Source: Chloroflexota bacterium (GTDB taxonomy: Bacteria; Chloroflexota; Anaerolineae; Aggregatilineales; Phototrophicaceae). From it: a stretch of DNA of 64,000 bases. Below the pieces are notes generated by a model. That model saw only the letters and a program-made list of their open reading frames with translations. It was not told where the DNA came from and did no database searches. A program made the translations under genes and the position numbers. Positions 1-28,824 of the stretch are shown in pieces (within the stretch, counting starts at the first letter, position 1; each line of letters starts with the position of its first letter). The DNA is taken from assembly GCA_016223085.1 (NCBI GenBank), contig JACRPS010000010.1:248001-312000 (forward strand). The letters run 5' to 3'.

Positions 1-893
1 TACTGGTCGCGCAGCGTGATCGAAGCCGGCCCCATATGCAGCGAACCTTCCTGCATGGCGCTGAAACGCGCTGCTTCGTCGGGATAGCTGACAAACTCCA
101 CCGTGTCCAGGTAGGGCAGGCTCTTGCCATCCGCGCCCATCTGCCAGTAATCCTCGCGGCGTTTGAAGCGAATGTATTCGTCCGGCACGTGTTCTTCAAT
201 CGTGAACGGCCCGGTGCCCCAAGGGTTGGTGAAGAAATCGCCCGGCCAATCTGAAGGCAGAATCGCGGCGTGATACAGGAACAGCGTGTAAATGAAGTCG
301 CCGACTACGCGGTTGGTGAAGAAGTTGACGGTATAATCATCCACCTTTTCGACACCGGTCACATAGTTGGCCGCGCCCGCCCAGCCAGAACTGTTGTCCG
401 GGTTCAGCAGCCGCTCGAAGGTAAACACCACGTCATCGGCATTAAAATCCTTACCATGATTAAACTTCACGCCTTCGCGCAGCGTGACGGTCCAGGTTTT
501 GCCATCTTCCGAGGGCATCCAACTGGTCGCCAGCGAGGGCTGTAAGTTCAGGTCGGGGTCGAGAACCACCAGATAATCGCAAATCTGGCGGACGTAGTTG
601 GACACAAACACCATGTCCAGGCGCGCCGGGTCATCAAAGCGGCGGGTGTCAATGCCCAGCGAGTTATAGATGGTCCCGCCGCGTACTGGTGCCATGTCCT
701 GCGCCAGCCGCGCCGGACGTGCCAGCAGGCGTTCGCGCGGCGGCAGCAGGCTGATCGCCATTGCGCTGGCGCCGACGGTCGAGGCGAAGCGTAAAAACTC
801 GCGGCGCGAAATCCGGTTTTGAGTGTACTGGAAGTGTGCCTCCCGTACCCGTTCTTCGTTGGCTTTTATAGCCTTTGGCCCAAACAGCTTCAT
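1..893 (-). CDS. Tat-exported peptide-type ABC solute-binding protein, partial
   Basis: This is the N-terminal 297 codons of a family 5 (oligopeptide/nickel type) extracellular solute-binding protein; the C-terminus lies beyond the left window edge. Reading from ATG at 893, a long N-region is followed by SRREFLR (twin Arg at residues 30-31) and a short hydrophobic run, a twin-arginine export signal. The mature part has family 5 hallmarks: a DYLVVLDPDLNLQPSLATSW segment, then WTVTLREGVKFNHGKDFNADD and a WGTGPF motif. It would capture a small peptide or similar ligand at the cell surface for an ABC importer whose membrane genes are not in view. It is divergent from the amine-catabolism genes and shares their promoter region, so the ligand may be related to that pathway; this is inference. 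Confidence 0.88.
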   Translation of the reverse strand, partial: MKLFGPKAIKANEERVREAHFQYTQNRISRREFLRFASTVGASAMAISLLPPRERLLARPARLAQDMAPVRGGTIYNSLGIDTRRFDDPARLDMVFVSNYVRQICDYLVVLDPDLNLQPSLATSWMPSEDGKTWTVTLREGVKFNHGKDFNADDVVFTFERLLNPDNSSGWAGAANYVTGVEKVDDYTVNFFTNRVVGDFIYTLFLYHAAILPSDWPGDFFTNPWGTGPFTIEEHVPDEYIRFKRREDYWQMGADGKSLPYLDTVEFVSYPDEAARFSAMQEGSLHMGPASITLRDQ

Positions 894-1083: not shown

Positions 1084-1980
1084 ATGATAAGGAATGGTAT
1101 GCTGACGAATGCCGACCTGGAACAGTATCAGCGCGACGGTTATCTCGTCGTGCGCGGATTATTTTCACCGGAAGAAGTCGCTTTTTACCGTAACCACTAT
1201 ATGGCGCTGCGTGAAAGCGGCTCTTACGAGGGCGACTATGCCGGCGTGCCGCGCATTCTGGGGAACTCCGCCAAAACGGGCGATCTGCTGAAGGATGATG
1301 AACCTGACCCGCTCAAAGCGTACCCGCGCATGATTCATATGCACCGCTGGGATGAGGTTAGCCGGCGCTGGCTGCTGGACACGCGCCTGCGCGAAACGCT
1401 TACGGCGCTGCTGGGCGTGGAGCCGTTCGCCGTGCAGACGATGCTGTACTTCAAACCGCCGGGGGCGCGCGGGCAGGCCATGCACCAGGATCAGTATTAC
1501 CTGAAGGTGCAGCCGGGTACGTCAATGGCGGCCTGGCTGGCGCTCGACGACTGCGACGAGGCCAACGGCTGTATGCAGATGGTACCGGGCAGCCATACGT
1601 GGGATGTCCTGTGTACGATCAAAGCCGATACGACACAGAGCTTTACCGACGTGACTGTGCCGCTGCCGGAAGGCGCAAAACCTGTGCCGCAGATTATGAA
1701 AGCGGGCGACGTGCTGTTTTTCAACGGCCAGATGGTGCACGGCAGTTTCCCGAACACAACCACCAACCGCTTTCGCCGGTCGCTGATCGGCCATTACATC
1801 GTTGGCGATGCGCAAAAAGTAGCGGAGTTTTACCATCCCGCGCTGCGGATGGACGGCAGTGTGGTTGAACTGGGCAAGAGCGAAGGCGGCGGCTCGTGCG
1901 GCGTGTGGGTGGAACGCGACGGCGCGCCTGTGATCGAGATGACCGGCCTCAGCGGCGCGCGGGCCGAGGAACACGAATAG
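1084..1980 (+). CDS. Phytanoyl-CoA dioxygenase (PhyH) family protein
   Basis: A 298-residue Fe(II)/2-oxoglutarate-dependent oxygenase of the PhyH family. The iron site is visible as H134-x-D136 (in MHQDQYY) and distal H219 (MVHGS), and R231 in FRRSLIGHY is placed to bind 2-oxoglutarate. Length is normal for the family. The start is uncertain: the ATG at 1084 has GGTGA just upstream, but the ATG at 1099 (protein beginning MLTNADLEQYQRDGY) has AAGGAA four bases before it and fits the family N-terminus equally well. It is the first gene behind the rightward promoter. Its substrate is unknown; next to demethylation genes a hydroxylation of a methylated amine or an uptake-linked substrate is conceivable, but that is inference. 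Confidence 0.88.
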   Translation: MIRNGMLTNADLEQYQRDGYLVVRGLFSPEEVAFYRNHYMALRESGSYEGDYAGVPRILGNSAKTGDLLKDDEPDPLKAYPRMIHMHRWDEVSRRWLLDTRLRETLTALLGVEPFAVQTMLYFKPPGARGQAMHQDQYYLKVQPGTSMAAWLALDDCDEANGCMQMVPGSHTWDVLCTIKADTTQSFTDVTVPLPEGAKPVPQIMKAGDVLFFNGQMVHGSFPNTTTNRFRRSLIGHYIVGDAQKVAEFYHPALRMDGSVVELGKSEGGGSCGVWVERDGAPVIEMTGLSGARAEEHE

Positions 1981-1990
1981 AAAACGACCC

Positions 1991-2018
1991 GTAGGGACAC
2001 GATAGATCGTGTCCCTAC
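1991..2018. repeat. GTAGGG palindromic repeat, copy 1
   Basis: GTAGGGACACGAT (1991-2003) and ATCGTGTCCCTAC (2006-2018), perfect 13-bp arms around AG, just after the PhyH stop codon. Member of the dispersed family discussed in the findings. Confidence 0.8.
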
Positions 2019-2062
2019 GATTACATCTGCAAGAATAGGGTTTTGTTTAAGGAGTGAGGTTG

Positions 2063-3100
2063 ATGGCTGGGTTGCTGGAACGGCTGCAAAAAGATGTGGT
2101 GCTGGGCGCGGAAGGCTACCTGTTTGAACTGGAACGGCGCGGCTACCTGAAGGCCGGGGCATACGTGCCGGAAGTGGTGATCGAACACCCCAACGCCGTC
2201 GCCGAACTGCACCGTGAATTTTTACGCGCGGGGGCAGAAGTGATGGTCGCGTTTACGTATTACGGGCACCGCGCCAAGATGCGCGCCATCGGGCGCGAGG
2301 GCGATCTGGAACGGCTGAACCGTGATGCCGTGCGGCTGGCAAAGTCGGTGGCAAACGAGGGCGGCGCGCTGGTGGCCGGGAACGTCTGCAACACGTGGGA
2401 ATATGACCCGCAGAAGCCGGAAGAGTCGGAACAGGTCGTGCGCCCGATGTTTGAGGAGCAGGTGCAGTGGGCGTGTGAAGAAGGCGCCGACTTCTTTATC
2501 GCGGAAACGTTCAACCATCTGGGCGAAGCCCTGATCGCGCTGGACGTGATTAAGCAGACCGGACTGCCGGCGATGGTCACGTTTGCCGCCAAGAACGAAA
2601 CCAGCTATGACGACCAGCCCTGGGAAGACGCCTGCAAGATTCTGGAAGATCACGGCGCGGACGTGGTCGGCCTGAATTGCAGCCGGGGGCCGGACCTGAT
2701 GCTGGAATTGATCGAACGCATCCGCCCGAAAGTATCCTGCTATGTGGCGGCGCAGCCCGTACCTTACCATACCACCCACGAACAGCCCTATTTTCAGGTG
2801 CTCACCGATCCGCACGGCAACCGCGCCTTCCCGGTCGCGCTCGACCCGTTCCTGCACACCCGCTTTGAAATGGCCGATTTCGCCCGGCGAGCGCGGGACA
2901 TCGGCGTGAATTACATCGGCATCTGCTGCGGCGGCGCGCCGCATCATGTTCGGGCGATGGCCGAAGCGCTGGGGCGCACCGTGCCCGCCAGCGCCTATTC
3001 GCCGGACCTGTCGCTGCACCCGGTACTGGGCGCGAAGGCCGAAACCAAAGCGAAAGTCCAGCGGCATTTGCAGGATTTTGACCTGAAGCAGCAGTCGTAG
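2063..3100 (+). CDS. Betaine-homocysteine-type S-methyltransferase
   Basis: 345 residues of the homocysteine S-methyltransferase fold (BHMT / Pfam S-methyl_trans). The three zinc cysteines are present: one in GLNCSRGP and a pair in GICCGG near the C-terminus. The family moves a methyl group from betaine-like or sulfonium donors to homocysteine, giving methionine. The start at 2063 is chosen because AAGGAG (2049-2054) lies eight bases upstream; an in-frame GTG at 2054 would overlap that ribosome site. It stands between the PhyH gene and soxB and so probably performs the first demethylation of a betaine, with later genes removing the remaining methyl groups. It has no cobalamin-binding module, so it is not a MetH. 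Confidence 0.85.
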   Translation: MAGLLERLQKDVVLGAEGYLFELERRGYLKAGAYVPEVVIEHPNAVAELHREFLRAGAEVMVAFTYYGHRAKMRAIGREGDLERLNRDAVRLAKSVANEGGALVAGNVCNTWEYDPQKPEESEQVVRPMFEEQVQWACEEGADFFIAETFNHLGEALIALDVIKQTGLPAMVTFAAKNETSYDDQPWEDACKILEDHGADVVGLNCSRGPDLMLELIERIRPKVSCYVAAQPVPYHTTHEQPYFQVLTDPHGNRAFPVALDPFLHTRFEMADFARRARDIGVNYIGICCGGAPHHVRAMAEALGRTVPASAYSPDLSLHPVLGAKAETKAKVQRHLQDFDLKQQS

Positions 3101-3107
3101 GTGTATC

Positions 3108-4343
3108 GTGCTCCAGTTAATCCGTCATGGACTGAATGGCAAGCGGCCTTTCCCGCGCATGTGGCGAGAACATGAGCTGAAAGACCGCTACGAGGTGGTC
3201 ATCATCGGTGGCGGGGTGCATGGGCTGGCGGCGGCCTATTATCTGGCGCGCGATCATGGCATCACCGATGTGGCCGTGCTGGAAAAAAACTACATTGGCA
3301 GCGGTGGCAGCGGGCGCAATACGACCATCATCCGGTCGAATTACCTGACGCCGGAAGGTGTGCTGTTCTACGACGAAAGTGTGAAACTGTACGAAACGCT
3401 GGCGCTGGAACTGAACTTCAATCTGCTGTTCAGCCAGCGCGGCCACCTGACGCTGGCTCACAACGACAGTTCGGTGCGGACGATGCGCTGGCGCGCCGAG
3501 GTGAACCAGCTTCAGGGGGTGGACAGCCGCCTGATCTGGCCGGACGAAATCGCGCGGCTGTGCCCGCAGCTTGACCTGAGCGACCATCCCCGCTACCCGA
3601 TTCTGGCGGCGCTGTATCACCCGCCGGGCGGCGTGATCCGGCATGACGCGGTGGTATGGGGCTACGCGCGCGGCGCGGATTTACGCGGCGTCCACATCCA
3701 CCAGAAAACAGAGGTCACGGGTATTGACGTGACCAATAGCCGCGTGACCGGCGTTCGCACCACGCGCGGCACGATCAAAACCGGCGTGGTGCTGAACGCG
3801 ACGGCGGGCTGGGCGACACTCATCAGTGATATGGCGGGCGTGCGCCTGCCGATCACCACCCATCCGCTGCAAGCCTGCGTCAGCGAATCGCTTAAGCCGT
3901 TCCTGAATGTGATTATTGTGTCGGGGTCGCTGCATGTTTACGTCAGCCAGTCCGACCGGGGCGAGCTGGTGATGGGCGCGTCGGTTGACCCGTATACCTC
4001 GTACTCGCTCGACTCGACGCTGGGCTTTCTGGAAGGCTTAAGCGGCCATCTGCTGGAACTGATGCCCAGCCTGGCGCGCGTGAAAATCCTGCGCCAGTGG
4101 GCCGGGCTGTGTGACATGACGCCGGACTACAGCCCGATCATGGGTTTTACGCCGGTCGAGGGTTTTCTGGTGGACGTGGGCTGGGGCACGTATGGCTTCA
4201 AGGCGGGGCCGGTCAGCGGCAAACGCATGGCGGAACTGATCGCCACCGACCGGACGCCTGATCTGCTCGCGCCGTTCCGCCTGTCGCGCTTCGAGGAAGG
4301 GCGGCTGGTGGGTGAAAAGGGCGCGGCGTCGGTCGGGCATTAG
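3108..4343 (+). CDS. soxB: Sarcosine oxidase subunit beta
   Basis: A 411-residue DAO-family flavoprotein. The FAD dinucleotide-binding motif is VVIIGGGVHGLAAAYYLA (glycines 34-36). H179, in GGVIRHDAVVWGYARG, corresponds to the histidine that carries covalent FMN in heterotetrameric sarcosine oxidase; that assignment rests on recalled family knowledge. The beta subunit oxidises the N-methyl group of sarcosine, and electrons then pass to the alpha subunit. GTG at 3108 is seven bases after the previous stop, with AGG before it. The gene is followed by soxD, soxA and soxG in the classic soxBDAG order, which makes the assignment firm even though DAO proteins are hard to tell apart by sequence. Confidence 0.88.
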   Translation: MLQLIRHGLNGKRPFPRMWREHELKDRYEVVIIGGGVHGLAAAYYLARDHGITDVAVLEKNYIGSGGSGRNTTIIRSNYLTPEGVLFYDESVKLYETLALELNFNLLFSQRGHLTLAHNDSSVRTMRWRAEVNQLQGVDSRLIWPDEIARLCPQLDLSDHPRYPILAALYHPPGGVIRHDAVVWGYARGADLRGVHIHQKTEVTGIDVTNSRVTGVRTTRGTIKTGVVLNATAGWATLISDMAGVRLPITTHPLQACVSESLKPFLNVIIVSGSLHVYVSQSDRGELVMGASVDPYTSYSLDSTLGFLEGLSGHLLELMPSLARVKILRQWAGLCDMTPDYSPIMGFTPVEGFLVDVGWGTYGFKAGPVSGKRMAELIATDRTPDLLAPFRLSRFEEGRLVGEKGAASVGH

Positions 4344-4533
4344 ACTTTTACGATATTAGAGAGGCGAGTCCGTAAAACACGCCAGACGTTTAAACGTCTG
4401 GCTATCCATCAGACAAGCCCGCTAGAGGGGCTGAAGAATACAGGGACTAAAGAGCGCCTTCAGTGCGCTTGGTTTTTCTGTCAGCCAGACGGCTTTAGCC
4501 TCTGGCGATAAACTGGATATAGGTTTGCTGACT
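4344..4533. repeat. soxB-soxD spacer with several hairpins
   Basis: No gene is seen in this 190-base gap. It holds a perfect 22-base palindrome at 4381-4402 (GCCAGACGTTT and its complement), an imperfect AGCCC/GGGCT hairpin near 4416-4432, AGCGC/GCGCT followed by a T-run near 4453-4477, and a hairpin at 4484-4506 with GCCAGA/TCTGGC arms around GGCTTTAGCC. The first and last share GCCAGACG at the left and TCTGGC at the right, suggesting two copies of another small palindromic element. The T-run hairpin could attenuate transcription inside the sox operon. Confidence 0.55.
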
Positions 4534-4791
4534 ATGTTATTACTTACCTGTCCTAACTGCGGCGAACGCAATGTGGCGGAATTCCGGTTCGGCGGCGAAG
4601 CGGTTAAACGCCCCGCGCCGGAGGATGTGAACCGCGCCACGTGGGCGGACTACCTGTACCTGCGGCGCAATACCAACGGCATGCAGCGCGAATGGTGGTA
4701 TCACACGCCATGCGGCTGCTGGTTTGTGGCGGAGCGCCATACCAGAACGCAGGATGTGTCGCATACGGCCTTCTGGTCGCCGGAAGGGTAG
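4534..4791 (+). CDS. soxD: Sarcosine oxidase subunit delta
   Basis: An 85-residue zinc-binding small subunit of heterotetrameric sarcosine oxidase. Zinc ligands are visible as C6 and C9 (CPNCG) and H57 and C60 (HTPCGCW). The motif EFRFGGE and the ending VSHTAFW are typical of SoxD. ATG at 4534 is preferred over an upstream in-frame TTG at 4525, because the AGG at 4521-4523 is then correctly spaced and the protein starts directly with the usual MLLL-x-CPxCG. It is separated from soxB by 190 bases of hairpins but lies only six bases before soxA. Confidence 0.9.
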   Translation: MLLLTCPNCGERNVAEFRFGGEAVKRPAPEDVNRATWADYLYLRRNTNGMQREWWYHTPCGCWFVAERHTRTQDVSHTAFWSPEG

Positions 4792-4797
4792 GGTATC

Positions 4798-7701
4798 GTG
4801 TCCGTAAAGATCACCGGGAATAATCGCCGCTTACCCACCGCGCGGTCGCAGACGATCAACCGGGGGAAAAGCATTCAGTTCACCTTCAACGGTAAAACCT
4901 ACACCGCTTATGAGGGTGATACGATTGCGTCCGCGCTGGCGGCGTCCGGCGTGACCACGTTCAGCCGCTCGTTTAAGTATCACCGGCGGCGCGGGCTGCT
5001 GTGCGCGGCGGGGAACTGCCCGAACTGCCTCGTCCACGCCGGCGACGAACCGAACGTGCGAAGCTGCGTGACGCCGGTCAGCGAAGGCTTGAAGGTGCGG
5101 TCGCAAAATGCCTGGCCGTCGCTGGAACGCGACGTGATGAGCCTGACGCAACTGGTTGACCGCTTCCTGCCGGCGGGTTTTTACTACAAAGCCTTCATGC
5201 GCCCGCGCGCCCTGTGGCCGTATTACGAGGAGATTTTGCGCCATGCGGCGGGGCTTGGTGAAGTCGTGCCGGCCACGAAGCCGGGCGAGTTTGATAAAGT
5301 CTACAAACACGCCGATGTAGCAGTAGTCGGCGGCGGCCCGGCAGGGCTGCGCGCCGCGCTGGCGGCGGCTAATCAGGGCGCGAACGTCATGCTGCTGGAC
5401 AGCGAACCGGCGCTCGGCGGGCATTTACGATACGCCACGCATGATATCGGCGGCCAACCTGCTTACCAGTACGCGGCGGCGCTGGCGGCGGAAGTGGCGG
5501 CGCATCCTCGAATTGATGTCATGACGAATACAACGGCATTTGGCTGTTACAAAGACCTTTGGCTGGGCGCGGTCAGCGGCGACCGCCTTATCAAGCTGCG
5601 CGCACGGGCGCTGGTGGTGGCTGCTGGCGCGTATGAGATTCCGCCCGTGTTTGAGAATAACGATCTGCCGGGGGTAATGCTTGGTTCGGCGGCGCAGCGG
5701 TTGGTGAACCTGTGGGGTGTGCGCCCCGGCACAACCGCTGTCGTCGTTTCCGCCAACGCGCGCGGCCTGCATCTGGCGCGAGAACTGGAACAGGCGGGCA
5801 TCACCATTGCGGCGGTAGCAGAACTGCGCGACCAGCCGGAGGCCGGTCTCATAACCGCGATTAACGCCCCGGCGCTGACCGGCGCGGCTATCGTTCGGGC
5901 GAACGGCAGTCGCCATGTTGAAAGTATTGTGGTTCGGGCAGGCGGGCAGGAGCGCAAAATCGCCTGTGATCTGCTGGCGCTGTCCACCGGCTATCTGCCC
6001 GCCAATGAACTGATGCTTCAGGCGGGCGGCAAAGTGGCCTGGGACGAGGCGCTGCACGAATTTCTGCCGTCGTCCGTGCCACCGGGCATTTTTGTGGCCG
6101 GTGAAGCCGCCGGCGCGCATACCCTGGCGGATATCGAACGCGAAGGCGAGCTTGCGGGCATCGAAGCCGCGCTCAAAGCCAGGTACGGCGATGCAGACGC
6201 ACAGGCGCGCCGCGATACGTTAGCCGCGCAGACCGCCGATGCGCGGTCCCGGCGCGTGGCGTGGAGCGCCGCTGAGGCCGACAACGCAGCAGGCAAACGG
6301 GATTTTGCCTGTTACTGTGAAGATGTGACGCGCAAGGACATCCAGCAGTCCATTGACGAGGGCTACAGCAGCATCGAACTGCTGAAACGTTACAGTACGG
6401 TCAGCATGGGACCGTGCCAGGGTAAAATGTGCAATACGGCGCTGGTGCAGTTGTGCGCGGCGCATACCGGGCAAACGGTGCGCGACACCGGTACGACGAC
6501 CGCGCGCCCTCCGGTGCGTCCGGTGACGATGGGCGCGCTGGGCGGGCGGCTGATGGAGCCCGTGCGGCTGTCGCCGATGCACGAGTGGCACGTGGCGCGC
6601 GGCGCGAAGATGATGAACGCCGGACTGTGGAAACGACCGGAGCACTATGGCGACCCGGTGGCGGAAGTGCGCGCCGTGCGCGAAGGCGTGGCGCTGATTG
6701 ACATCAGCACGCTGGGCAAAATCCACCTCCATGGACCGGACGTGCCGGTGCTGCTGGAACGGCTGTATACCAACCGCTGGCGTAAGCTGGACGTGGGGCG
6801 CGTGCGTTACGGTATTATGGTCAATAACGAAGGCGTGGTGATGGATGACGGCGTGACCGCCCACCTGAGCGATAATTTCTATTACATGACGGCCACCTCC
6901 GGCGGTGCGGCGGCGGTGTACGAGTGGATTGAATCGTGGCTGCAAACCGGCTGGTTGCTCAACGTTCACGCGCTGGACGCGACCGAACTGCGCGCCGCGA
7001 TGAACCTGACCGGGCCGTTCGCGCGCCAGGTGCTGGCAAAAGTGACTGACGGTGTTGACCTGAGCAACGAGGCGTTCCCCTACATGCACGCGCGTGAAGC
7101 GACGGTTGCCGGAGCGCCGGCGCTGCTGCTGCGCGTCGGCTTTACCGGCGAACTGGGTTATGAGATTCACGTGCCCGCCGGTTACGGCCTGTGCGTGTGG
7201 GAAGCCCTGATGGACGCCGGGCGCGAGTTTGGCATCCTGCCGTTTGGTGTGGAAGCGCAGCGCGTACTGCGGCTGGAAAAAGGCCACATCATTGTCGGTC
7301 AGGACACCGACGGCCTGACGAACCCGCTGGAAGCCGGGCTGGACGGACTGGTGAAACTGGATAAAGACGACTTCATCGGTAAAACGTCGCTGGTGCTAGC
7401 CGGGGAACGCGCGGTCGAAAAGCGGCTGGTGGGGTTCACCATGCCGGATGGCACACTGCCGGAAGAAGGCAACCAGATCGTGCGCCCCGGCAAAGGGCCG
7501 CTGGGGCTGGAAATCATCGGACGTATCACCAGCACGCGCTACAGTCCAACCCTCAAGCAGGTGATCGGCCTGTGCTGGCTACCGGCGGCGCTGGCCGAAC
7601 CCGGTCACGACTTCACCGTGCGCGTGCGCGGCGAACTGAAAACCGGGCGCGTGGCGGCGCTGCCGTTTTACGACCCGGACGAAACGTGCCTGCGGGCGTG
7701 A
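4798..7701 (+). CDS. soxA: Sarcosine oxidase subunit alpha with two iron-sulfur motifs
   Basis: 967 residues in the SoxA layout: N-terminal ferredoxin-like region, NAD-binding domain (GGGPAGLRAALAAANQG from G178), BFD-like segment and C-terminal GcvT/T-protein fold (about 590-960) that passes the one-carbon unit to tetrahydrofolate. Unusually, the N-terminus keeps a full plant-type [2Fe-2S] set, C69-x4-C74-x2-C77 and C90, and the BFD-like segment keeps C505-x-C507, C540 and C545 (CYCEDVT, GPCQGKMC). Classical SoxA, as I recall it, has lost these cysteines (FVDFQNDVT and MATDQGK at the second site). The enzyme may therefore hand electrons to another acceptor through Fe-S clusters and act as a dehydrogenase rather than an oxidase. 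GTG start at 4798 with AGGG upstream. Confidence 0.88.
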   Translation: MSVKITGNNRRLPTARSQTINRGKSIQFTFNGKTYTAYEGDTIASALAASGVTTFSRSFKYHRRRGLLCAAGNCPNCLVHAGDEPNVRSCVTPVSEGLKVRSQNAWPSLERDVMSLTQLVDRFLPAGFYYKAFMRPRALWPYYEEILRHAAGLGEVVPATKPGEFDKVYKHADVAVVGGGPAGLRAALAAANQGANVMLLDSEPALGGHLRYATHDIGGQPAYQYAAALAAEVAAHPRIDVMTNTTAFGCYKDLWLGAVSGDRLIKLRARALVVAAGAYEIPPVFENNDLPGVMLGSAAQRLVNLWGVRPGTTAVVVSANARGLHLARELEQAGITIAAVAELRDQPEAGLITAINAPALTGAAIVRANGSRHVESIVVRAGGQERKIACDLLALSTGYLPANELMLQAGGKVAWDEALHEFLPSSVPPGIFVAGEAAGAHTLADIEREGELAGIEAALKARYGDADAQARRDTLAAQTADARSRRVAWSAAEADNAAGKRDFACYCEDVTRKDIQQSIDEGYSSIELLKRYSTVSMGPCQGKMCNTALVQLCAAHTGQTVRDTGTTTARPPVRPVTMGALGGRLMEPVRLSPMHEWHVARGAKMMNAGLWKRPEHYGDPVAEVRAVREGVALIDISTLGKIHLHGPDVPVLLERLYTNRWRKLDVGRVRYGIMVNNEGVVMDDGVTAHLSDNFYYMTATSGGAAAVYEWIESWLQTGWLLNVHALDATELRAAMNLTGPFARQVLAKVTDGVDLSNEAFPYMHAREATVAGAPALLLRVGFTGELGYEIHVPAGYGLCVWEALMDAGREFGILPFGVEAQRVLRLEKGHIIVGQDTDGLTNPLEAGLDGLVKLDKDDFIGKTSLVLAGERAVEKRLVGFTMPDGTLPEEGNQIVRPGKGPLGLEIIGRITSTRYSPTLKQVIGLCWLPAALAEPGHDFTVRVRGELKTGRVAALPFYDPDETCLRA

Positions 7702-7723
7702 AGTGTTGAATGCGGAAATTTGC

Positions 7724-7753
7724 GTAGGGGAGGGTGTTTAGACTCTCCCCTAC
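7724..7753. repeat. GTAGGG palindromic repeat, copy 2
   Basis: GTAGGGGAGGGT (7724-7735) pairs with GACTCTCCCCTAC (7741-7753) with one G-T wobble. It lies between soxA and soxG. The open frame of soxG runs back through it to 7720, but that extension is repeat sequence, not gene. Confidence 0.7.
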
Positions 7754-7779
7754 AAAAACGAGATTTGGAAGGTAAAGAT

Positions 7780-8406
7780 ATGACTCTCCCCACCCGCAGC
7801 CATCTCCCCATTGCGCTGCCGCTGAACGTGACCGCGCCGGACGTGCTGCTGGAACGGCTGCGCGCCGGGGTTGGCGTTGGGTACGCGGCGACCTTAGGAT
7901 TGCTGAATCTGCGCGGGTACAACGCAGGGACACTCGTGCGGCAGGTGTACAGTACGGGAGTGGATACCGTTGGCGCGGTCGCCCGTGTGTCCGACGGCCT
8001 GCTGGCGTGGCTGCGGCGGGACGAACTCGTGCTGCTGTCGCCCGGCCTAGCAGATGCGCTCGACCGCCTGCAAGCCGCGTCCGCTGAATCCCTGCTGACG
8101 CTGACCGACCTGACTCACGGGCGCGGTTTCCTCGTGCTGGCTGGAGCGCGGGCGGCGGACGTGCTGCCGAAAGTGTGCAGCCTTAACTTTAGCGAGGCCG
8201 CGTTTCCCGACCATCGTGCGGCGCAGGCGATGCTGGCGAAGGTGCGGGCGCTCATCCTCCGTGCTGACATGGCGCAGCTTCCGGTGTATCACGTCATCGT
8301 AGACCGGTCGCTGGCGGCTTACGGGTGCGATGTGCTGCTCGACGCCGCGCAGGAATTTGACGGGGTGACGTTTGATTATAACGTGATTGAGGGTAACGTT
8401 CGGTAG
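7780..8406 (+). CDS. soxG: Sarcosine oxidase subunit gamma
   Basis: A 208-residue SoxG-like protein, the small gamma subunit that packs against alpha in heterotetrameric sarcosine oxidase and has a GcvT-related fold without catalytic residues. It is recognised by position after soxA, by length, and by segments such as LRRDELVLLSPG, LVLAGARAADVLPKVCSLNF and YHVIVDRSLAAYGCDVLLDA. ATG 7780 is chosen because GGAAGG lies eight bases upstream; the in-frame ATG at 7720 would translate the palindromic repeat. The TAG stop (8404-8406) is supplied by the first bases of the next palindromic repeat, so the original stop may have been displaced when the element arrived. Confidence 0.78.
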   Translation: MTLPTRSHLPIALPLNVTAPDVLLERLRAGVGVGYAATLGLLNLRGYNAGTLVRQVYSTGVDTVGAVARVSDGLLAWLRRDELVLLSPGLADALDRLQAASAESLLTLTDLTHGRGFLVLAGARAADVLPKVCSLNFSEAAFPDHRAAQAMLAKVRALILRADMAQLPVYHVIVDRSLAAYGCDVLLDAAQEFDGVTFDYNVIEGNVR

Positions 8407-8430
8407 GGGCACGGCATGCCGTGCCCCTAC
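8403..8430. repeat. GTAGGG palindromic repeat, copy 3
   Basis: A 28-base perfect palindrome: GTAGGGGCACGGCA followed by its exact complement. It is identical to copy 5 at 13000. Bases 8404-8406 form the stop codon of soxG. Confidence 0.85.
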
Positions 8431-8481
8431 TACACAAATCACAGTTGTGCCGGGATAAGATTGAGCGTTTGAGGGAAAAAC

Positions 8482-9807
8482 ATGCCGGTTTTACCGAAAT
8501 CCAAAAAGTTCGTGGTCATCGGCGCCGGGATGCACGGTCTGAGTACCGCATGGCATCTGGCGAAGGAACTGAAAGCGCGTGGCATAGGTTCTGGCGAGGA
8601 CATTGTGGTGCTGGACAAAACCAGCCCCGGCGCGGGCGCGTCCGGCATCGCCTGCGGGGTGATTCGCAACTTCTACTACCAGCCGGCGATGGGCGAGGTG
8701 ATGCGCGTCAGCGTCGAAGTGTGGGAGGAAAACGCGCAGGATTTGCACTATCACGGCGTCGGTTACATGGCGCTGGTCGGGCCGGTTCAGGACAGCGATT
8801 TGCAAAGCATTTACGAGCGGCAGCAGAAAAGCGGCTACCGTTCCGACCTGATCTGCGGCGAGCAGCAGGTGTATGATTACATGCGCGGCCTGTTCCCGGA
8901 CTGGAAGGCGCGCAGCCTGACCACCTGTCTGCACGAAAAACAGGGTGGGTTCGCCTTCAATATCTCGTCGGTGCTGGGGCTGGTGCGGAAGGTAGAAAGC
9001 GAAGGCGTGAGCATCCTGTCCGGCGTGGAGGTGACGGGCTTCACCCGCAGCGGCGATACGATCACTGCCGTGCAGACCCATCACGGCACGATTGAAACGG
9101 GACAGATCATCATTGGCGTCGGCCCCTGGATTAAAGGGCTGTGGACAATGCTCGGCCTGCCGAACACGATTGACATCCGCAAGCCGAACTGCGACGTGGT
9201 GAAAGACTGGCCGATGTGGACGTACTGGCGCTTGCAGGAGGGGGAAATCCGTGTCAACCCGGCAGAGTACGTCACCGCCGACGGCGCGTATCCACCTGTG
9301 ATTCACGTCGATTCGACCGAGCCGCTGATTTCCGACCGAACTGGGCAGGTGATTACGGACAAGCTGTGGGGCATTTACTTCAAGCGCGACAAACGCGGCG
9401 TGCAGGGCGGCGCGGTGCCGGACAATCTCGGCACGGACGCGCAGGTTGACCCCTACGGCCCGGACAGCCCGTATTACACGGTGAACGACGATTTCATTGA
9501 TTACTGGACTGCCGGGCTGGCACACTGCATGGATCGTTTCGAGGGTTGCAGCGCGGCCTATCACCGCGCGCCGTCCGGCGGGGTTGGCGCGTTCACAGCG
9601 GACAGCTTCCCGGTTTTTGACCGGATGCTGCCAAACGTATACGTGATCGCTGACAGCAATCATGGTTACAAGATGATCGGCGTCGGCAAGGAAGTGGCGC
9701 GCGTGCTGATGGGCGAACACAGCAGCGTGTTACATCCGTTCCGCTTCGCGCGCTTTGCCGAGGGCGATCTGCATCCCGTATCAAACAGCCCGTACCCCTG
9801 GAGTTGA
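8482..9807 (+). CDS. DAO-family FAD-dependent oxidoreductase
   Basis: 441 residues of the DAO flavoprotein family, with the dinucleotide motif FVVIGAGMHGLSTAWHLA at the N-terminus and the family C-terminal segment VYVIADSNHGYKMIGVGKEVARVL. It resembles single-subunit sarcosine or dimethylglycine-oxidising enzymes and SoxB, but is more distant from the soxB at 3108 than a duplicate would be, and lacks a GcvT domain. GAGGGA before the ATG supports the start. Placed after soxG and six bases before a URO-D-type gene, it could oxidise dimethylglycine or a related N-methyl amine upstream of sarcosine. The exact substrate cannot be read from sequence. Confidence 0.8.
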   Translation: MPVLPKSKKFVVIGAGMHGLSTAWHLAKELKARGIGSGEDIVVLDKTSPGAGASGIACGVIRNFYYQPAMGEVMRVSVEVWEENAQDLHYHGVGYMALVGPVQDSDLQSIYERQQKSGYRSDLICGEQQVYDYMRGLFPDWKARSLTTCLHEKQGGFAFNISSVLGLVRKVESEGVSILSGVEVTGFTRSGDTITAVQTHHGTIETGQIIIGVGPWIKGLWTMLGLPNTIDIRKPNCDVVKDWPMWTYWRLQEGEIRVNPAEYVTADGAYPPVIHVDSTEPLISDRTGQVITDKLWGIYFKRDKRGVQGGAVPDNLGTDAQVDPYGPDSPYYTVNDDFIDYWTAGLAHCMDRFEGCSAAYHRAPSGGVGAFTADSFPVFDRMLPNVYVIADSNHGYKMIGVGKEVARVLMGEHSSVLHPFRFARFAEGDLHPVSNSPYPWS

Positions 9808-9816
9808 TGCGCGTTG

Positions 9817-10857
9817 ATGAATATCCGCGAACGGCTGGAAGCGTTCTGGTCGGGCGAACGGCCTGACCAGATTCCCTACACGATTTACCAGTGGGAATGG
9901 CGGCATACCGCCGATGACCCGTGCTGGCCGAAGTTGTTCCGGCAGGGTTTGGGCGTGACATGGCACATCCCCACCACGCGGGAGATCATGCCCGGTGTGG
10001 AGGAGCAGATTGACCGTGCTTACCAGAACGGCGTCCTGCACGAACGGCGCACGCTGCGAACGCCAATCGGCGAAATCACCGAAACATATGTGGATGGCTG
10101 GCGGCAGAAGTACCTGCTGGAAACGGCGTCGGACTACGCTGTGATGACGTATATCGTCCGGCATACGTTTGTTGAGCCGGATTACGAGTCGTATCAGGCG
10201 CAGGTGGCGCAGTTGGGCGCGGAGGCCGTGCCGCTGGTGCATGTGCGCCGCACGCCGCTGCAAACGATTCTGGTAGATTACGCCGGGCAGGAGAATTTCG
10301 CCTATCAGGTGTTTGATCTGGCCGACGAGATGCAGGAACTGTACGATGCGCTGCTGGTGAACTTCCGCCGCACCATTGAGATCGTGGCGGAAGGGCCGGG
10401 GCGCTGTGTCTACATCCTCGAAAACCTGTCGGCGGACATGCTGGGGCCGGAACGCTACCGCCGCTGGCATCTGCCGGTGTACGAAGAACTGTTCCCAGTG
10501 TTACACGCGGCGGGCAAGGTCATCAGCACGCACTATGACGGCAAGCTGTCCACCTGCAAAGACCTGATCGCCCGCGCGCCGATGGACATCATTGAGTCAC
10601 TGACGCCGCCGCCGGAAGGTGACCTGACACTGGCGGAAGCGCGGGCGGCCTGGCCGGACAAGTGTTTCTGGTCGAACCTCAATATCGGCTGTTACGCGCT
10701 GCCCCCGGCAGAACTCAAGGCGCTGGTGCTAAACCGCGTGCAGCAGGCCGCGCCGGACGGGCGGCGGCTGGCGTTTGAAGTGTCGGAGCAGTTCCCGGCC
10801 AACTGGCGCGAATCGCTGGCGGTCGTGCTGGACGCGCTGCGCGAGACGCGGGCGTGA
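9817..10857 (+). CDS. Uroporphyrinogen decarboxylase (URO-D) family protein
   Basis: 346 residues with the URO-D fold seen in corrinoid-dependent methyltransferases (MtaA, CmuA, MtbA relatives) as well as in HemE. The segments VISTHYDGKLS and MDIIESLTPPPEGDLTLAEA fit uncharacterised members rather than HemE. Family members in amine loci transfer methyl groups to or from a corrinoid, so this one may be an auxiliary methyltransferase of the locus; no corrinoid protein is seen nearby. ATG 9817 is preferred over a TTG immediately before it; no strong ribosome site is visible, and translation may be coupled to the gene ending at 9807. It ends the rightward cluster, facing the radical SAM gene. A second URO-D protein occurs at 55261. 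Confidence 0.78.
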   Translation: MNIRERLEAFWSGERPDQIPYTIYQWEWRHTADDPCWPKLFRQGLGVTWHIPTTREIMPGVEEQIDRAYQNGVLHERRTLRTPIGEITETYVDGWRQKYLLETASDYAVMTYIVRHTFVEPDYESYQAQVAQLGAEAVPLVHVRRTPLQTILVDYAGQENFAYQVFDLADEMQELYDALLVNFRRTIEIVAEGPGRCVYILENLSADMLGPERYRRWHLPVYEELFPVLHAAGKVISTHYDGKLSTCKDLIARAPMDIIESLTPPPEGDLTLAEARAAWPDKCFWSNLNIGCYALPPAELKALVLNRVQQAAPDGRRLAFEVSEQFPANWRESLAVVLDALRETRA

Positions 10858-16449: not shown

Positions 16450-19400
16450 CTAAGGCAGCACCTGGAGCGCGTCCACGCTCAGGACTTTGCCATAGTCCCA
16501 GTTTTCGATCACGATCTGGTGCGTGTCCGCCTTGCCAAAGCCGTAGAAGGCGACTGGCGTGAAGTAGGTCGTGCGTGTGGACTGGCTGAAGTCGGTGCAA
16601 TCCTGGCCTTCATCGGTGGTCACGCACAGGCGAATCTTGCGGCTGGCGCGGGTGCTGCCAGTCTGGTACAGCACCAGCGCGTTACCATCCACCTCTACCT
16701 GGGCAATCGTGCCGACGGCAGTGGTATTATGCTCGGTGCGCTGCCAGGGGCCACGTGCCGGGCCGTAGGGTGTGGACAGGAGTGTCCAGAAGGCCGAGGG
16801 ACTGTAAGCGATGTTCGGGTTGGTGTCGTCATGGAGTGGGCCGCTTGCCAGCGCCGCGCCCGGCGCGCCAAACACTACCACCGCATCCACCTGTAGCCAG
16901 TCTGTCAGTGGCACACCGGCGGGCGGCGTGTCAATGTGGCGCAACTCCGCTACATAGACCCCGTTGGGCAGGCCGTGTATCGCAAAGGCATACTGGTATG
17001 CGGTGATTGGGTTGGGGCGGTCGCCGTTGACGGCCAGCCAGGTCGGTTCGCCGCTGCCGGCGCTGGTATCAGTGGTCACGGTCTGGCAGGTTTCGCCCGT
17101 GCCGTCAAACGTGCCATCGAAGGCGGTCTTCAGAACGTAACACAGCCGCATGTCCGAACCGTAAGCATCGGCCTGCGTTAGCACTGAGAAACCCGTACCG
17201 CTGAATTCGAGCGCGATGGCGGCGTTGGCTGTTTTGGTACGAACCAGCGTGCCGCCGTAGGCGCGGGTAGATTTCACCGTTGTCCAGGATGAGCCACCGG
17301 TGTTCAGCAAACCATTGTTACCCACCAGGAAGCTGTCGTAGATGCCCGGTGTCAGCGTCGTGCCGAAGATGACCTGGAAGCCGTCAATACGGAACTGCCC
17401 CGTCGTCAACGTGCGGAACGAGAGTGTGACGTTGGCCGCATTCGCCAGTACCGGCAGATTGGTGCTGTTGAGCACAATCTGGTTTTCGGTCTTCAGGTTG
17501 GTGATCCTGATGCAGTCAGCAGTTGTCACGTTGTTGGCACAGACCAGCACTTCTCCAGAGTTGAGACTGCTGGCCGGGCCGGTGTACAGGATGACGGTCG
17601 CGGCGCTGGCATTGTTCAGCCGCAGCGTCGCCACTGGGCCGGCGTAGGCGCTGGATAGGCGCTTGCTGTTGTCCACCACGCCGACATAGCTGCCGCCGCT
17701 GAAGCCGCGCGCCGCCGTGCCGCTGAAGGTGTTCCAGCGATTGGCGGGCAGCAGTTGCAGAACCTTCACGCCGCCGCTGGCTGCATCCTCGTTGAATTGG
17801 CCGGACGTGGTGATCGCGGGTGGCAGTGCCTCGCCGAAGATGCGCACGAAGTCAATCACCAGCCGGACGGGCGCGTAACGCGGGTTGCGCGGCGGGACAT
17901 TCGTTTCGGCGTTGCGGACGCGCACGAAGTAGGGGGTCGCAGGGTTCAGCCCGGTGACGGTGCGGCTGGTCGTGTAACTGGCCGTAGACCTCTCGTTCTG
18001 GTAGATGTAACATCTGCTGGTTGCGTCAGCCCAATCGGCGTCGCCGTCCGTATCGTAGCAGATTTCCATCTCGCCGCCGTACAGGTCGGCCAGCGCACCG
18101 ACCTCGAAGCCGGTCGCGCTCACAAAGCTGAATTCCATCGTGGCGGTGTCGTCGCTTGTCCAGCGCGCCTGCCCGCCGGAGTAGCTAGCGCTGAAGATGC
18201 TCGTCCAGGCCACTTCAGGCGGGTTCACCGTACCGTTCTGGAACTTCAGCCCCGGATGCACATCTTCGTACAGGCCGGGTTGCAGTGGCGCGGCGCTGCT
18301 GCCGATCTCGATGGCGTCCAGCGTCAGCGTACCGGCGTCGAGCGTGGTGATCGAAACCCGGCGTTCGCCGGTGTAACCCGCGTCCACCAGTGGGACGGCG
18401 ATGGTTGGCTGCGTGCCCGTGCCGGTGTTGTTCAGCACCGTGACACAGCTTCGGTTGCCGTTATCCACCCGCTGCGAGCAGACTTCCATCGGGGCGTTGC
18501 CCGCGCCGACGTTGCGGTAGATGATGATGGAGTCCGCGTTGAAGGTGCGGAACAGCAGACCCGCGCCGATGACATTGGCAATCGTGTCGTAGTTCTTGCC
18601 GGAGTAACGCGCCGCTGCGGTGCCACTGACCGAGCGCCAGCCCTGACCGTAGTACAGGAACCGGCCATCGGCAGCGCGGTTGGCGTAGCTGGTTTCGTAG
18701 CGTGTGCCGACGGTGTCCAGCCGGTTGGCAGGCTGCGCGTCATCGTAAATCTGGATGGCGTCCACATGCATCGTGATTGGCGTGGCGGTCGGCAGGTGCG
18801 GCGCTGGCGTGTTGTTGTCCGCCAGCATTTGCACCGAAGCGGTGTAGTCACCGTCCTGCAAACCGAGGATCGTCCGGGCGGCGCGGTAGCGGGCAGCCGC
18901 GCTCTGGTTGTCGTAGGTCGTGCAGTCGCCCGCCTGCGTTTGCGCCAGGTTTAGCCCCAGACCGCTCGCCCAGCAGATTTCTACCGCGTCGGCTTTTGCG
19001 TCGAACACGAAGTAGACCGAGAAGCCCGTGCCGTTGAAATCAAACAGCACATGGTCGCCTGCCGTTTGCGTCTGGTGGACCGAACCGCCGGAGGCGCTGG
19101 TGACAGTTGGCGTTGTAAACGTGCCGGTATATTCCAGGCTGCCAAAGCTGTCTTCGTAGTACCCGGCGGTCAGCGCCGCGCCGGCGTTCGTCGAACGCAC
19201 GAAGTCCAGCGGCATGGGCTTGCCATCAGCGTTGCGCAGCAGAACCCAGCGCAGGCCGCTTCCGGTTAGCGTTACCGATTGCGTTTGCTGGAAGCCAGCC
19301 CCAACGTTGGAAATGGTGGCCGGATTCGCGTTAGGCGTTGTGCCGCAGTTCTTCGAGCCATCGGCGCTGAACGCACCCGCGCAGACCGCTACGCTGCCAT

Positions 19401-22400
19401 AGGTGGACTTCAGTTCGCGTCCGTATTCAAACGCGCTTGTGTTGAGTTCAAAGTAGACCGCCGCGCCGCGCATACTGCCGATATGCTGGCTGCCGCCGGA
19501 TGCCGCTGCTGCCGCCACTTCGTTGAAACTGAAGTACGGGAAGTAGACGATGCGCGGGTCAATGTTTTCCACGCCGCCGGTTACGGATGCGGCGATGTCG
19601 CTCACGTCGCCCAGCACGTCCACCCGGTCAACCAGCAGCGGTTTGGTGGGGTCGAGATTCGTCAGCACCACATCGTATTCGCCCGGCGCAAAACCGACGT
19701 AGGTCAGCGCCGACGGCGCCCGGGCGCTGCTGATTGCGGTGTTCGCGTTGGGCGTGGGCAGGGACACCGGTGCGCCTTCCACCGTCAGCGAGTAGTTGCG
19801 GCTGGTCAACGTACTTTCCGCCAGCACGATGCTGAAGCCCGTGCCGTTGAAGGTAAACGACAGCGTTTGCCCGCTGCTGCCAAGCGCCGTGCTCTTGACG
19901 CGCCTGTCGGTGGCGCTGGCTTCAGTCAGGAAGCCGGATGCCCAGTTACCGCCATAAGTCAACTGGCCGCTGTTTTCCTGGTGGATACCAGGGAGCAGTG
20001 CGCCCGTTGTGTTCAGCACGCCAATCGCGTCCACGATCAGAGTTGTGCCCGGCGTCAGGTTGGTGATGCTAACCTGATAGTTGCCGACCGCACCCAGCGT
20101 GAAGGTGGTGTTGCTGCTGCCAACCAGCGTGACGGTTGTGGGTGAACAGGTACGCGTGAAGGGGGACGCGGCCAGCGTGGCGCAGAACTGCACGTTGGTG
20201 CTGGTTGAGCCGATGTGGTGCAGCACTACTACGTTAGCGCCCGTCACGGCGAAGCTCAGCGTCGCGCCCAGACGGTTGCTGGTGTGGTTGCTCTGGTTGA
20301 GGTTCGCCGGCGCGCGGCTGCCCAGGTTTACCGTCCAGGCGGCGTTGCTCGGCCCATACAGGAACAGCGGCTTGCCATCGGCAGCGTGGGCGTTGTCGTC
20401 GTAAATGCCGGGTGACAGCGCCGGGCTGTACTGGCCGTAGATTTCGATGCCGTCTACTGTGAACTTGTTGCGCGTGCCATCGGTTTCAGTGATCGTGACC
20501 TTGTAGGTGTCATAGGGCAGGCCGGTTACGCTGTGGGCGTGGCCGTAGTACGTCACGCTACGGTTGCCGGTCACATCCACCGTGTACGAAGCATCCGGCG
20601 GGTCAGGTATCTCGTTAACGACGATTTGCAGGTTGCTGCTGGCGCTGTCAACCAGCGTGAGCAGCGAGAAACCCGTGCCCTCAAACTCAAACGTGAGACT
20701 CGCCCCTGGCACAGTGGACTGCATGGCCGCGCCGTTGGCGTAGCTGCTGGAGGTGATGTTGCGCCAGTCGTTGACCGTATCGTTGAGATTCGGGTCAGTC
20801 GTGGCGTTGTAAATCAAACCCTCGGTGGTTTCGGTGTACAGGCCGGGTTGCAGCGGCGCGGCGTCCAGCAGTTCGATGGCGTCCAGGTTGAACGTACCGG
20901 CATTCAGCGTCGTGATCGAAACGACGTGCGGGCCAGTACTGCCCAGGTTGACGTTGTAGGCCGACTGGTAAGCCGTGCCGCCGTCGCTGCGGATGTCCAC
21001 GCAGGTGAACAGGTTGTAGTCCACCACGAATGTGCCGGCGGTATAGGGCGCGTAACACAGGCGCAGTGGCGCGTAGCCCGAACGCAGATCGCGGTACAGG
21101 CGGACCGTGTCGGCACCGTTGGTGCGGAAGACGATGCCTGCGCCATAGGCTTTCACCTGGTCGTAGTTCTGGCCGGAATAGCGGCTCGCCGCCGTGCCGG
21201 TGAACGACCGCCACAGGCTGCCCAGGTAGTTCAACTGGTTACTGGCAGCCCGGTTGGCGAAGCTGGTTTCATGGCGCGCGCCGTTTGGCAGCGGCGTCAG
21301 TTCGTTCAGGTCCTGCCAGCGGTCGCCGTAGACACGAATCGCGTCCACCTGCATGGAATTGCCGCTGATGACCGTGCCGGTGACGGTATAGTTCGCGCCG
21401 ATATGCTGGATGACCGCCGCGTAGGTGCTGTCTTCCAGCCCGGCGACAGTGCGAGCCGCCTGATACACGGCGGTGGCGCTGTAGTTGTTAAACTGGCTGC
21501 ACGTGCCGTTTGTCAGCACATTGTCTACCGTCGCGGTTTGCGCCACATCTTTCAGCCAGCACAGTTGTACCGGACCGCCGCGATTATCCAGCGTGAACAG
21601 CGTCGAGAAGCCGGTGCCTTCAAAGCGGAAGAACACACCCTCGTTCTGTTCCTTGATAAACGCCACGCTGCCGCCGGAGGCGCGCGTGTTGTTGACCGTC
21701 GTGACCGAGCTGTCCGGCGCGGTGCCATCATTGCACGGGAAGCCGGGCTGGTCGTCGTCGAAGTAACACAGGTTCGGCACGTTCTGTTCGTAGATGCTCG
21801 CCTGCAGCGGCGCGGACGACGACAGCACCTGCACACGGTCCAGGTTAAACGGCTGGTTGGTCAGGCTGAAGATTTCGACCGTGTGCGCCCCGTTGCTGCC
21901 CGGCGTGCCCCAACCCTGCGGGCCAAAGTCGCTTTCGGCGATCACCAGCGGGTTATGGGTCACCAGGGGTGCGGTTGTGGTGCGCAGGGGTTTGGTGACA
22001 CAGAAGGTATTCTGGGTGTCCGCCGGGTGCAGTTGCCCGCGATCCACGCACACCATGATGCTGGTGCTGTCGGTGGTCGTGGCGTAGCGCCACCACGAGA
22101 AGCTGGTGGCATCATTGGGAATCTGGAAGCTGAAGAACGGCCCGGCCTTCGTCACCGTCGAGATGATGCTGGTCAGGCTGTTGCCGGACGTGCGGGTGTT
22201 GTTGGTGTCCAGCAGCCAGGTGTCCTCCAGCCCACCGCCAAACAGGATGCGATCCCGGTCGGTGTCCTCGGTTGTGCCCAGCGGCAGGACGCCGGCGATC
22301 TGGCGGTCAAAGACAACGATGGAGTCAATCACCATGCGCCCGGTCGCCGGAAGCGAGTCAATGTGCAGCGTGACTTCGTGTTCGATGTCCGGGTTAAAGC

Positions 22401-28698: not shown

Positions 28699-28735
28699 AA
28701 CGGCCTCCGAAATGAACGCGGGTTGGCGTATGCGC

Positions 28736-28764
28736 AGTATAGACGTGCCTTGCCAACCGGCCAA
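28736..28764 (-). promoter_or_regulatory. Promoter of the giant secreted protease gene
   Basis: Minus strand TTGGCC (28764-28759), 17-base spacer, TATACT (28741-28736). Predicted start near 28730 gives a leader of about 30 bases before ATG 28698. Confidence 0.55.
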
Positions 28765-28824
28765 TAGCACAAATGGAATAACAGGCTGTCTTAACTACCG
28801 CTCAATACTGGATTCTGTTACGGC

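Follow-up and report, generated by a model that had tools for sequence, protein, structure and literature searches.

Is a gene cluster resembling heterotetrameric sarcosine oxidase bound to encode an oxidase, or may it belong to a dehydrogenase that hands its electrons on through iron-sulfur clusters? The question is raised by a soxA-like gene in a 64,000-nucleotide stretch of a Chloroflexota bacterium (assembly GCA_016223085.1, contig JACRPS010000010.1, positions 248,001 to 312,000), hereafter the window, since the alpha subunit that it encodes, SoxA, carries two groups of four cysteines spaced as in [2Fe-2S] proteins. A preliminary description of this DNA recognized both patterns and proposed a sarcosine dehydrogenase sending electrons to a ferredoxin, quinone or cobalamin pathway instead of oxygen. 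The present analysis makes it likely that the segment 3108-8406 encodes a two-cluster heterotetramer of SoxBDAG type, functioning as a tetrahydrofolate-linked N-methyl-amino-acid dehydrogenase, probably of sarcosine in a betaine-demethylation run, with the eight-cysteine state being ancestral. The elements of SoxA that bear on this reading are as follows.

4798..7701, + strand: soxA-like gene, 967 amino acids, GTG start and TGA stop; domain order Fer2_4, pyridine-nucleotide-disulphide-like, A3/BFD, GcvT (T-protein)
5002..5067, + strand: plant-type [2Fe-2S] motif C69-X4-C74-X2-C77-X12-C90, in the same columns as in the small partner subunits of OoxA/NoxA
6310..6432, + strand: BFD-type [2Fe-2S] motif C505-X-C507-X32-C540-X4-C545, matched by Fer2_BFD with 30.9 bits
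6577..7674, + strand: GcvT folate-binding and C-terminal barrel domains, residues 594-959 (Pfam GCV_T and GCV_T_C)

Two cysteine motifs in one alpha subunit

Besides Fer2_BFD, SoxA is recognized by the Pfam models Fer2_4 (112.5 bits), SO_alpha_A3 (87.0), GCV_T (248.3) and GCV_T_C (69.8), each of the five exceeding its gathering score. The protein contains 14 cysteines, among them 69, 74, 77 and 90 of the first motif and 505, 507, 540 and 545 of the second, and in 20,000 composition-preserving shuffles of its sequence CX4CX2CX11-12C appeared once, CXCX15-40CX4C nine times and both together not a single time. The eight cysteines are genuine, rightly placed and not a product of chance; the two patterns of the preliminary description are borne out by their positions, the Fer2_4 and Fer2_BFD matches, the shuffles and a spacing common to all 22 proteins that have the set (see below). 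Its statement that classical sarcosine oxidase has neither cluster also held in comparison with 1vrq_A and 2gag_A, the alpha subunits of two oxygen-using enzymes of known structure, which have non-cysteine residues at the aligned cluster positions, both alignments ending before C90; an oxygen-using SoxA with the same eight cysteines, which the description named as evidence against itself, did not emerge from this comparison. The literature searched yielded neither a description of any SoxA with two [2Fe-2S] clusters nor a purified member of the eight-cysteine group.

An AlphaFold2 model of SoxA computed from a 22-row alignment has a mean pLDDT (predicted local distance difference test) of 86.8. 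Its residues 7-583 resemble the L-proline dehydrogenase alpha subunit 1y56_A (Z 39.1, root-mean-square deviation (rmsd) 2.2 over 472 residues) and residues 589-967 resemble T-protein 1woo (Z 48.5, rmsd 1.6 over 360 residues), while the model as a whole matches 1vrq_A with Z 50.4 but with an rmsd of 9.5 over 890 residues. Asp683-Asp684-Gly685 of the T-protein domain is invariant in the 22 aligned rows.

Distribution and ancestry of the cysteine set

Homologues were drawn from a phylum-wide sample (44 of 301 genomes matched), a class sample (14 of 249) and plasmids (409 records matched), as well as from a scan of GTDB contigs, in which 205 of 225 pattern matches were confirmed and the best 80 of these, representing 79 distinct loci, were kept. 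After removal of partial genes and of rows repeating one and the same core, 85 distinct full-length relatives were obtained, and among them the cysteine set is all-or-none: eight are present in 22 proteins, none in 62 and one stray cysteine in a single protein (L050; relatives are cited by locus number), the proportion of 22 in 85 reflecting a sample assembled from plasmids and from proteins resembling that of the window, and not a natural frequency. The spacing CX4CX2CX12C plus CXCX32CX4C is identical in 22/22, where each cysteine is 100% conserved; in rows without the set position 74 is E or D (63/63) and position 505 is D (61/63). This joint presence or absence of two sites about 430 residues apart is best explained by two clusters acting as one unit. 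Single-motif states exist outside SoxA, as indicated by 1y56_A, whose cysteines align to the BFD motif and which has none where the alignment covers the first motif.

Named genomes with eight cysteines belong to Chloroflexota (including SAR202), Planctomycetota, a Bryobacterales and a Thermoleophilia, the trait being the mark of a family spread over these lineages and not special to the window gene. An Aggregatilineales genome has an eight-cysteine SoxA 87% identical to that of the window, and no counterpart of the gene was found in the eight same-family genomes and one same-genus genome searched. Partial genes, kept apart from the 85, include one with all eight cysteines (L053), others whose aligned part holds all four BFD cysteines (L068, L054, L034/L056), one with the four plant-type cysteines (L159) and three with none (L048, L058, L033); L148, which is partial and has an internal stop, shows zero cysteines at the seven positions read. 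Separately, five shorter SoxA-like proteins of Anaerolineae (L152-L156, 747-791 amino acids), which would form another iron-sulfur subfamily, possess the BFD motif in 5/5 cases and the plant-type motif in 4/5; their middle domain is reduced, and they end in a T-protein part. In genome G517 a SoxBDAG cluster linked to MTTB (L163) contains a SoxA frame that is interrupted by a stop codon and shows none of the cluster cysteines at the positions that were read; this copy may be decaying.

The direction of change was addressed with a rooted tree of 53 rows (residues 15-585, the eight cysteine columns removed), in which the outgroup consisted of four rows of opine oxidases: alpha subunits of OoxA/NoxA type joined with their own small [2Fe-2S] subunit, plus one single-chain relative. 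All eight cysteines stand in the same columns in 4/4 outgroup rows. Eight-cysteine rows are basal, and nested among them is a clade (100/99) that brings together the window clade, the sister group of the latter (L147, L149, L150) and every one of the 30 rows lacking the set. Since the outgroup carries the eight cysteines and the basal rows do so too, the eight-cysteine state appears to be ancestral, and the cluster-free SoxA proteins, including the solved oxygen-using enzymes, would have arisen through at least one joint loss of the two clusters, and probably through two. Two is the smallest number of changes in the rooted tree, and two are forced in a full-length tree (49 rows, quick method, without the opine outgroup), where the cluster-free L042 and L043, relatives of about 55% identity standing beside the window clade, fall with the window group (Shimodaira-Hasegawa-like approximate likelihood ratio test, 98). 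The Arthrobacter protein L142, which matches 1vrq_A with 1,289 bits, sits in the main cluster-free clade and thereby links the solved oxidases with a single cluster-free group. One further residue, bearing on whether alpha binds flavin adenine dinucleotide (FAD) as in enzymes of OdhABC type, is conserved only in part: at the presumed FAD-ribityl position an acid is found in 4/4 outgroup rows, 9/22 eight-cysteine rows (E436 in the window) and 0/63 others.

Gene run, proposed electron route and rival explanations

SoxA belongs to a run of eight genes (1084-10857) separated by intergenic gaps of 6 to 181 bases.

1..893, - strand: divergently oriented gene (5' part) for the solute-binding protein of an oligopeptide-type ATP-binding cassette transporter, the remaining transporter genes lying upstream of the window
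1084..1980, + strand: PhyH-family (Fe(II)/2-oxoglutarate) oxygenase, 298 amino acids, first gene of the run (PhyH 133.3 bits), kept in L044
2054..3100, + strand: betaine-homocysteine-methyltransferase (BHMT)-like gene, 348 amino acids (S-methyl_trans 151.7 bits; mammalian BHMT 1umy 202.4 bits)
3108..4343, + strand: soxB, FAD-binding catalytic subunit, 411 amino acids (DAO 235.9 bits; 1vrq_B 396.9 bits)
3642..3644, + strand: SoxB His179, aligned to the histidine that links flavin mononucleotide (FMN) in solved SoxB
4525..4791, + strand: soxD, 88 amino acids, with CPNC and CGC motifs (Cys 9, 12, 63, 65; SoxD 94.3 bits)
7720..8406, + strand: soxG-like divergent subunit, 228 amino acids (SoxG 31.3 bits, Pfam threshold 21; NCBIfam cut-off not reached)
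8482..9807, + strand: second DAO-family flavoprotein (DAO2), 441 amino acids (DAO 112.8 bits), with homologues in L044, L040, L041 and L043
9814..10857, + strand: URO-D-like protein, possible methyltransferase, 347 amino acids (URO-D 20.4 bits, weak, below Pfam's 23.9), kept in L044

The order B-D-A-G is given by SoxB (DAO; TIGR01373), SoxD, the SO_alpha_A3/GCV_T protein and SoxG, so that the preliminary description was right in placing all three partners around SoxA and a little generous in calling them normal, the SoxG match being weak. The FMN-linking histidine, numbered H173 for 2GAG in PMC9045290, is H at the corresponding position in 75/75 SoxB sequences compared, and the SoxB columns splitting the two groups (95, 141, 167, 183, 270) suggest no mechanism. 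In the BHMT-like protein C209, C291 and C292 are candidate zinc cysteines. A homocysteine S-methyltransferase family gene is seen downstream of the opine-oxidase genes of pTi15955 (L139, 6145-6936), much as the BHMT-like gene adjoins soxB here. The transporter upstream of the run (locus L119) comprises SBP_bac_5, permeases and ATPase in the same layout as in L044. By base composition the cluster is no island, its guanine-plus-cytosine content being 62.3% versus 61.1% in the window downstream. Between soxG and DAO2 of L040 (6193-7710) there is a 506-amino-acid protein with fatty-acid-desaturase and C-terminal Rieske domains, possibly another demethylating oxygenase, and elsewhere in the window (16450-28770, - strand) an open frame of 4106 amino acids appears, judged by eye, to have a signal for export as well as repeats and a stretch of subtilase type.

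Because the eight cysteines are kept here and lost in the known oxygen-using enzymes, the complex probably passes electrons on as a dehydrogenase. By homology, FAD of SoxB would oxidise the N-methyl group and electrons would move to FMN, for which His179 is in place and the covalent bond is expected. From FMN they might proceed to the BFD-type and then to the plant-type cluster of SoxA, assuming that both motifs assemble their clusters and are used in this order, and further to an external one-electron acceptor, candidates being ferredoxin, quinone and cytochrome c. The C-terminal T-protein domain would presumably accept the released one-carbon unit to give 5,10-methylene-tetrahydrofolate. A search of the genome for acceptors found one electron-transfer flavoprotein (ETF) alpha gene, no ETF:quinone oxidoreductase domain and a COX1 gene, none of which names the acceptor.

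As for the substrate, a BHMT-like gene adjoins SoxA in the window, L044 and L040, Pfam reveals MTTB in L041, L043 and L163, and the homology count places an MTTB homologue beside L041 and L147, the latter cluster also having a glyA homologue at its side. As one betaine-demethylase-like gene takes the place of another ahead of the same SoxBDAG, the complex may handle the leftover secondary amine, for which sarcosine would be the simplest candidate. When the genes up to 9 kb from SoxA are considered, a BHMT-like or MTTB gene accompanies 5/22 eight-cysteine genes, homologues of N-methylglutamate synthase or gamma-glutamylmethylamide synthetase accompany 10/22, and neither context is seen in 7/22, four of them with less than 3.5 kb of flank.

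Several observations weigh against the reading of a two-cluster sarcosine dehydrogenase ancestral to the oxidases. The clusters of SoxA are predicted, and a cofactor-free model cannot reveal them; sarcosine as the probable substrate is suggested by neighbour genes. All four Sox proteins score below the NCBIfam cut-offs (SoxA 923.3 against 1164 for TIGR01372, SoxB 510.3 against 529.45, SoxD 83.8 against 116.5, SoxG 54.4 against 143.95), and the run contains no recognizable gene for a ferredoxin, a quinone oxidoreductase or a cytochrome. A single loss is not rejected by the approximately unbiased test (p = 0.198). The proteobacterial SoxA proteins adjoining N-methylglutamate-synthase genes (L037, L039, L132, L133) have zero of the eight cysteines, and enzymes of this pathway are termed dehydrogenases in PMC5023235, so that clusters are not required for dehydrogenase behaviour and their loss alone does not make an oxidase. 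Conversely, clusters might coexist with oxygen use.

The last point underlies the alternative that the window enzyme is an oxidase in spite of its clusters, oxygen reacting at FMN and the clusters having a structural role or forming a minor side path. SoxB closely resembles its counterpart in the solved oxidase (396.9 bits) and retains the FMN histidine, and the COX1 gene implies that oxygen is probably available to the cell. This alternative is nevertheless unlikely: invariant spacing across distant lineages and joint loss fit electron transfer better than structure, and the studied two-motif relative PpOdhABC, which has FAD, FMN and [2Fe-2S], is presented in PMC4575208 as a dehydrogenase and not an oxidase, using cytochrome c and neither oxygen nor NAD(P)+. 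The absence of oxygen use supposed in the preliminary description hence has a precedent in that enzyme, although the presence of clusters does not in itself exclude the use of oxygen.

Alternatively, the enzyme might be an iron-sulfur N-methylglutamate dehydrogenase acting on N-methylglutamate made from methylamine, like other eight-cysteine enzymes. The pathway homologues near 10/22 eight-cysteine genes speak for it; no markers of this pathway occur up to 9 kb from SoxA in the window or in L044, L040 and L041, and the window clade groups (100/99) with rows outside the N-methylglutamate-linked eight-cysteine group, leaving the proposal rather improbable. As a general identity of eight-cysteine SoxA it was rejected: the same context occurs in 16/63 proteins without the set, and its proteobacterial representatives have none of the cysteines.

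The cobalamin route fared worse. Feeding of electrons into corrinoid methyl transfer, e.g. for reductive reactivation of a corrinoid protein, would suit the URO-D-like gene closing the run, the three relatives with MTTB and the corrinoid protein, RACo and homocysteine S-methyltransferase encoded elsewhere on the contig, yet the genome is without MTTB, no corrinoid protein was recognized in the run and the URO-D match, below the Pfam cut-off, is accompanied by no match in a sequence search of the PDB; we regard this route as very improbable and rejected it as the main link, the corrinoid and RACo genes being about 200 kb off. These genes (L169, 6902-10852), with the homocysteine S-methyltransferase adjacent, make up a corrinoid methyl-transfer set. 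Hardly credible is the view of the cysteines as non-binding remnants in an ordinary sarcosine oxidase, since remnants would erode singly and no partly decayed set occurs among the 85, the eight being conserved at fixed spacing in all 22 carriers, even if cluster-free relatives function without them and no biochemistry was found for the window clade.

The broader proposal, to which we incline slightly, is that oxygen-using heterotetrameric sarcosine oxidase descended from a two-cluster tetrahydrofolate-linked dehydrogenase by joint loss, the window enzyme and its sister clade being the living pre-loss state, an iron-sulfur sarcosine dehydrogenase of betaine breakdown. It would give the change a direction, from a dehydrogenase to its descendant deprived of two electron-transfer clusters, and would offer L042/L043 and the window clade as a natural pair for studying how a flavoenzyme gains or loses oxygen as acceptor. 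Genes annotated as sarcosine oxidase in Chloroflexota and Planctomycetota may accordingly not produce hydrogen peroxide.

Comparison with known systems

The locus joins two families studied apart, the iron-sulfur opine and proline dehydrogenases and heterotetrameric sarcosine oxidase. With OdhABC and OoxA/NoxA it shares two motifs in the same columns and homologous alpha and ferredoxin-like parts. The definition given in PMC4575208 (CX4CX2CX11-12C and CXC..CX4C with X15-20 in motif 2) describes both motifs of SoxA except for the spacer of the second, X32, a length also found in OoxA; for PpOdhABC the same paper attributes the single cluster that was measured to the gamma subunit and points out another motif in alpha. 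In these enzymes a gamma subunit of its own provides the ferredoxin-like part, there is no T-protein domain, SoxD or SoxG, and substrates are opines, whereas window SoxA unites Fer2_4 and GCV_T in one chain. The L-proline dehydrogenase PDH1 of Pyrococcus horikoshii (1y56) has an alpha subunit similar to residues 7-583, with cysteines at the BFD motif; unlike window SoxA, it has no cysteines where the alignment covers C69 and C74 and no T-protein domain.

N-methylglutamate dehydrogenase MgdABCD (PMC5023235) is a SoxBDAG-type heterotetramer predicted to produce methylene-tetrahydrofolate, and many eight-cysteine relatives sit in clusters of this type; in contrast, the proteobacterial SoxA adjoining that pathway has none of the eight cysteines, and the window cluster has none of the pathway's other genes. 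The likeness to SoxBDAG itself (1vrq of Corynebacterium sp. U-96, and 2gag) extends to the B-D-A-G order, full-length alpha match, FMN histidine of beta and T-protein domain. The two differ in the [2Fe-2S] cysteines, of which the solved alphas have none at the positions covered and window SoxA has eight of eight, and window SoxA stays below the TIGR01372 cut-off (923 bits against 1164). The window gene is a two-cluster form of a known kind, and its distinguishing trait is broader than the preliminary description supposed.

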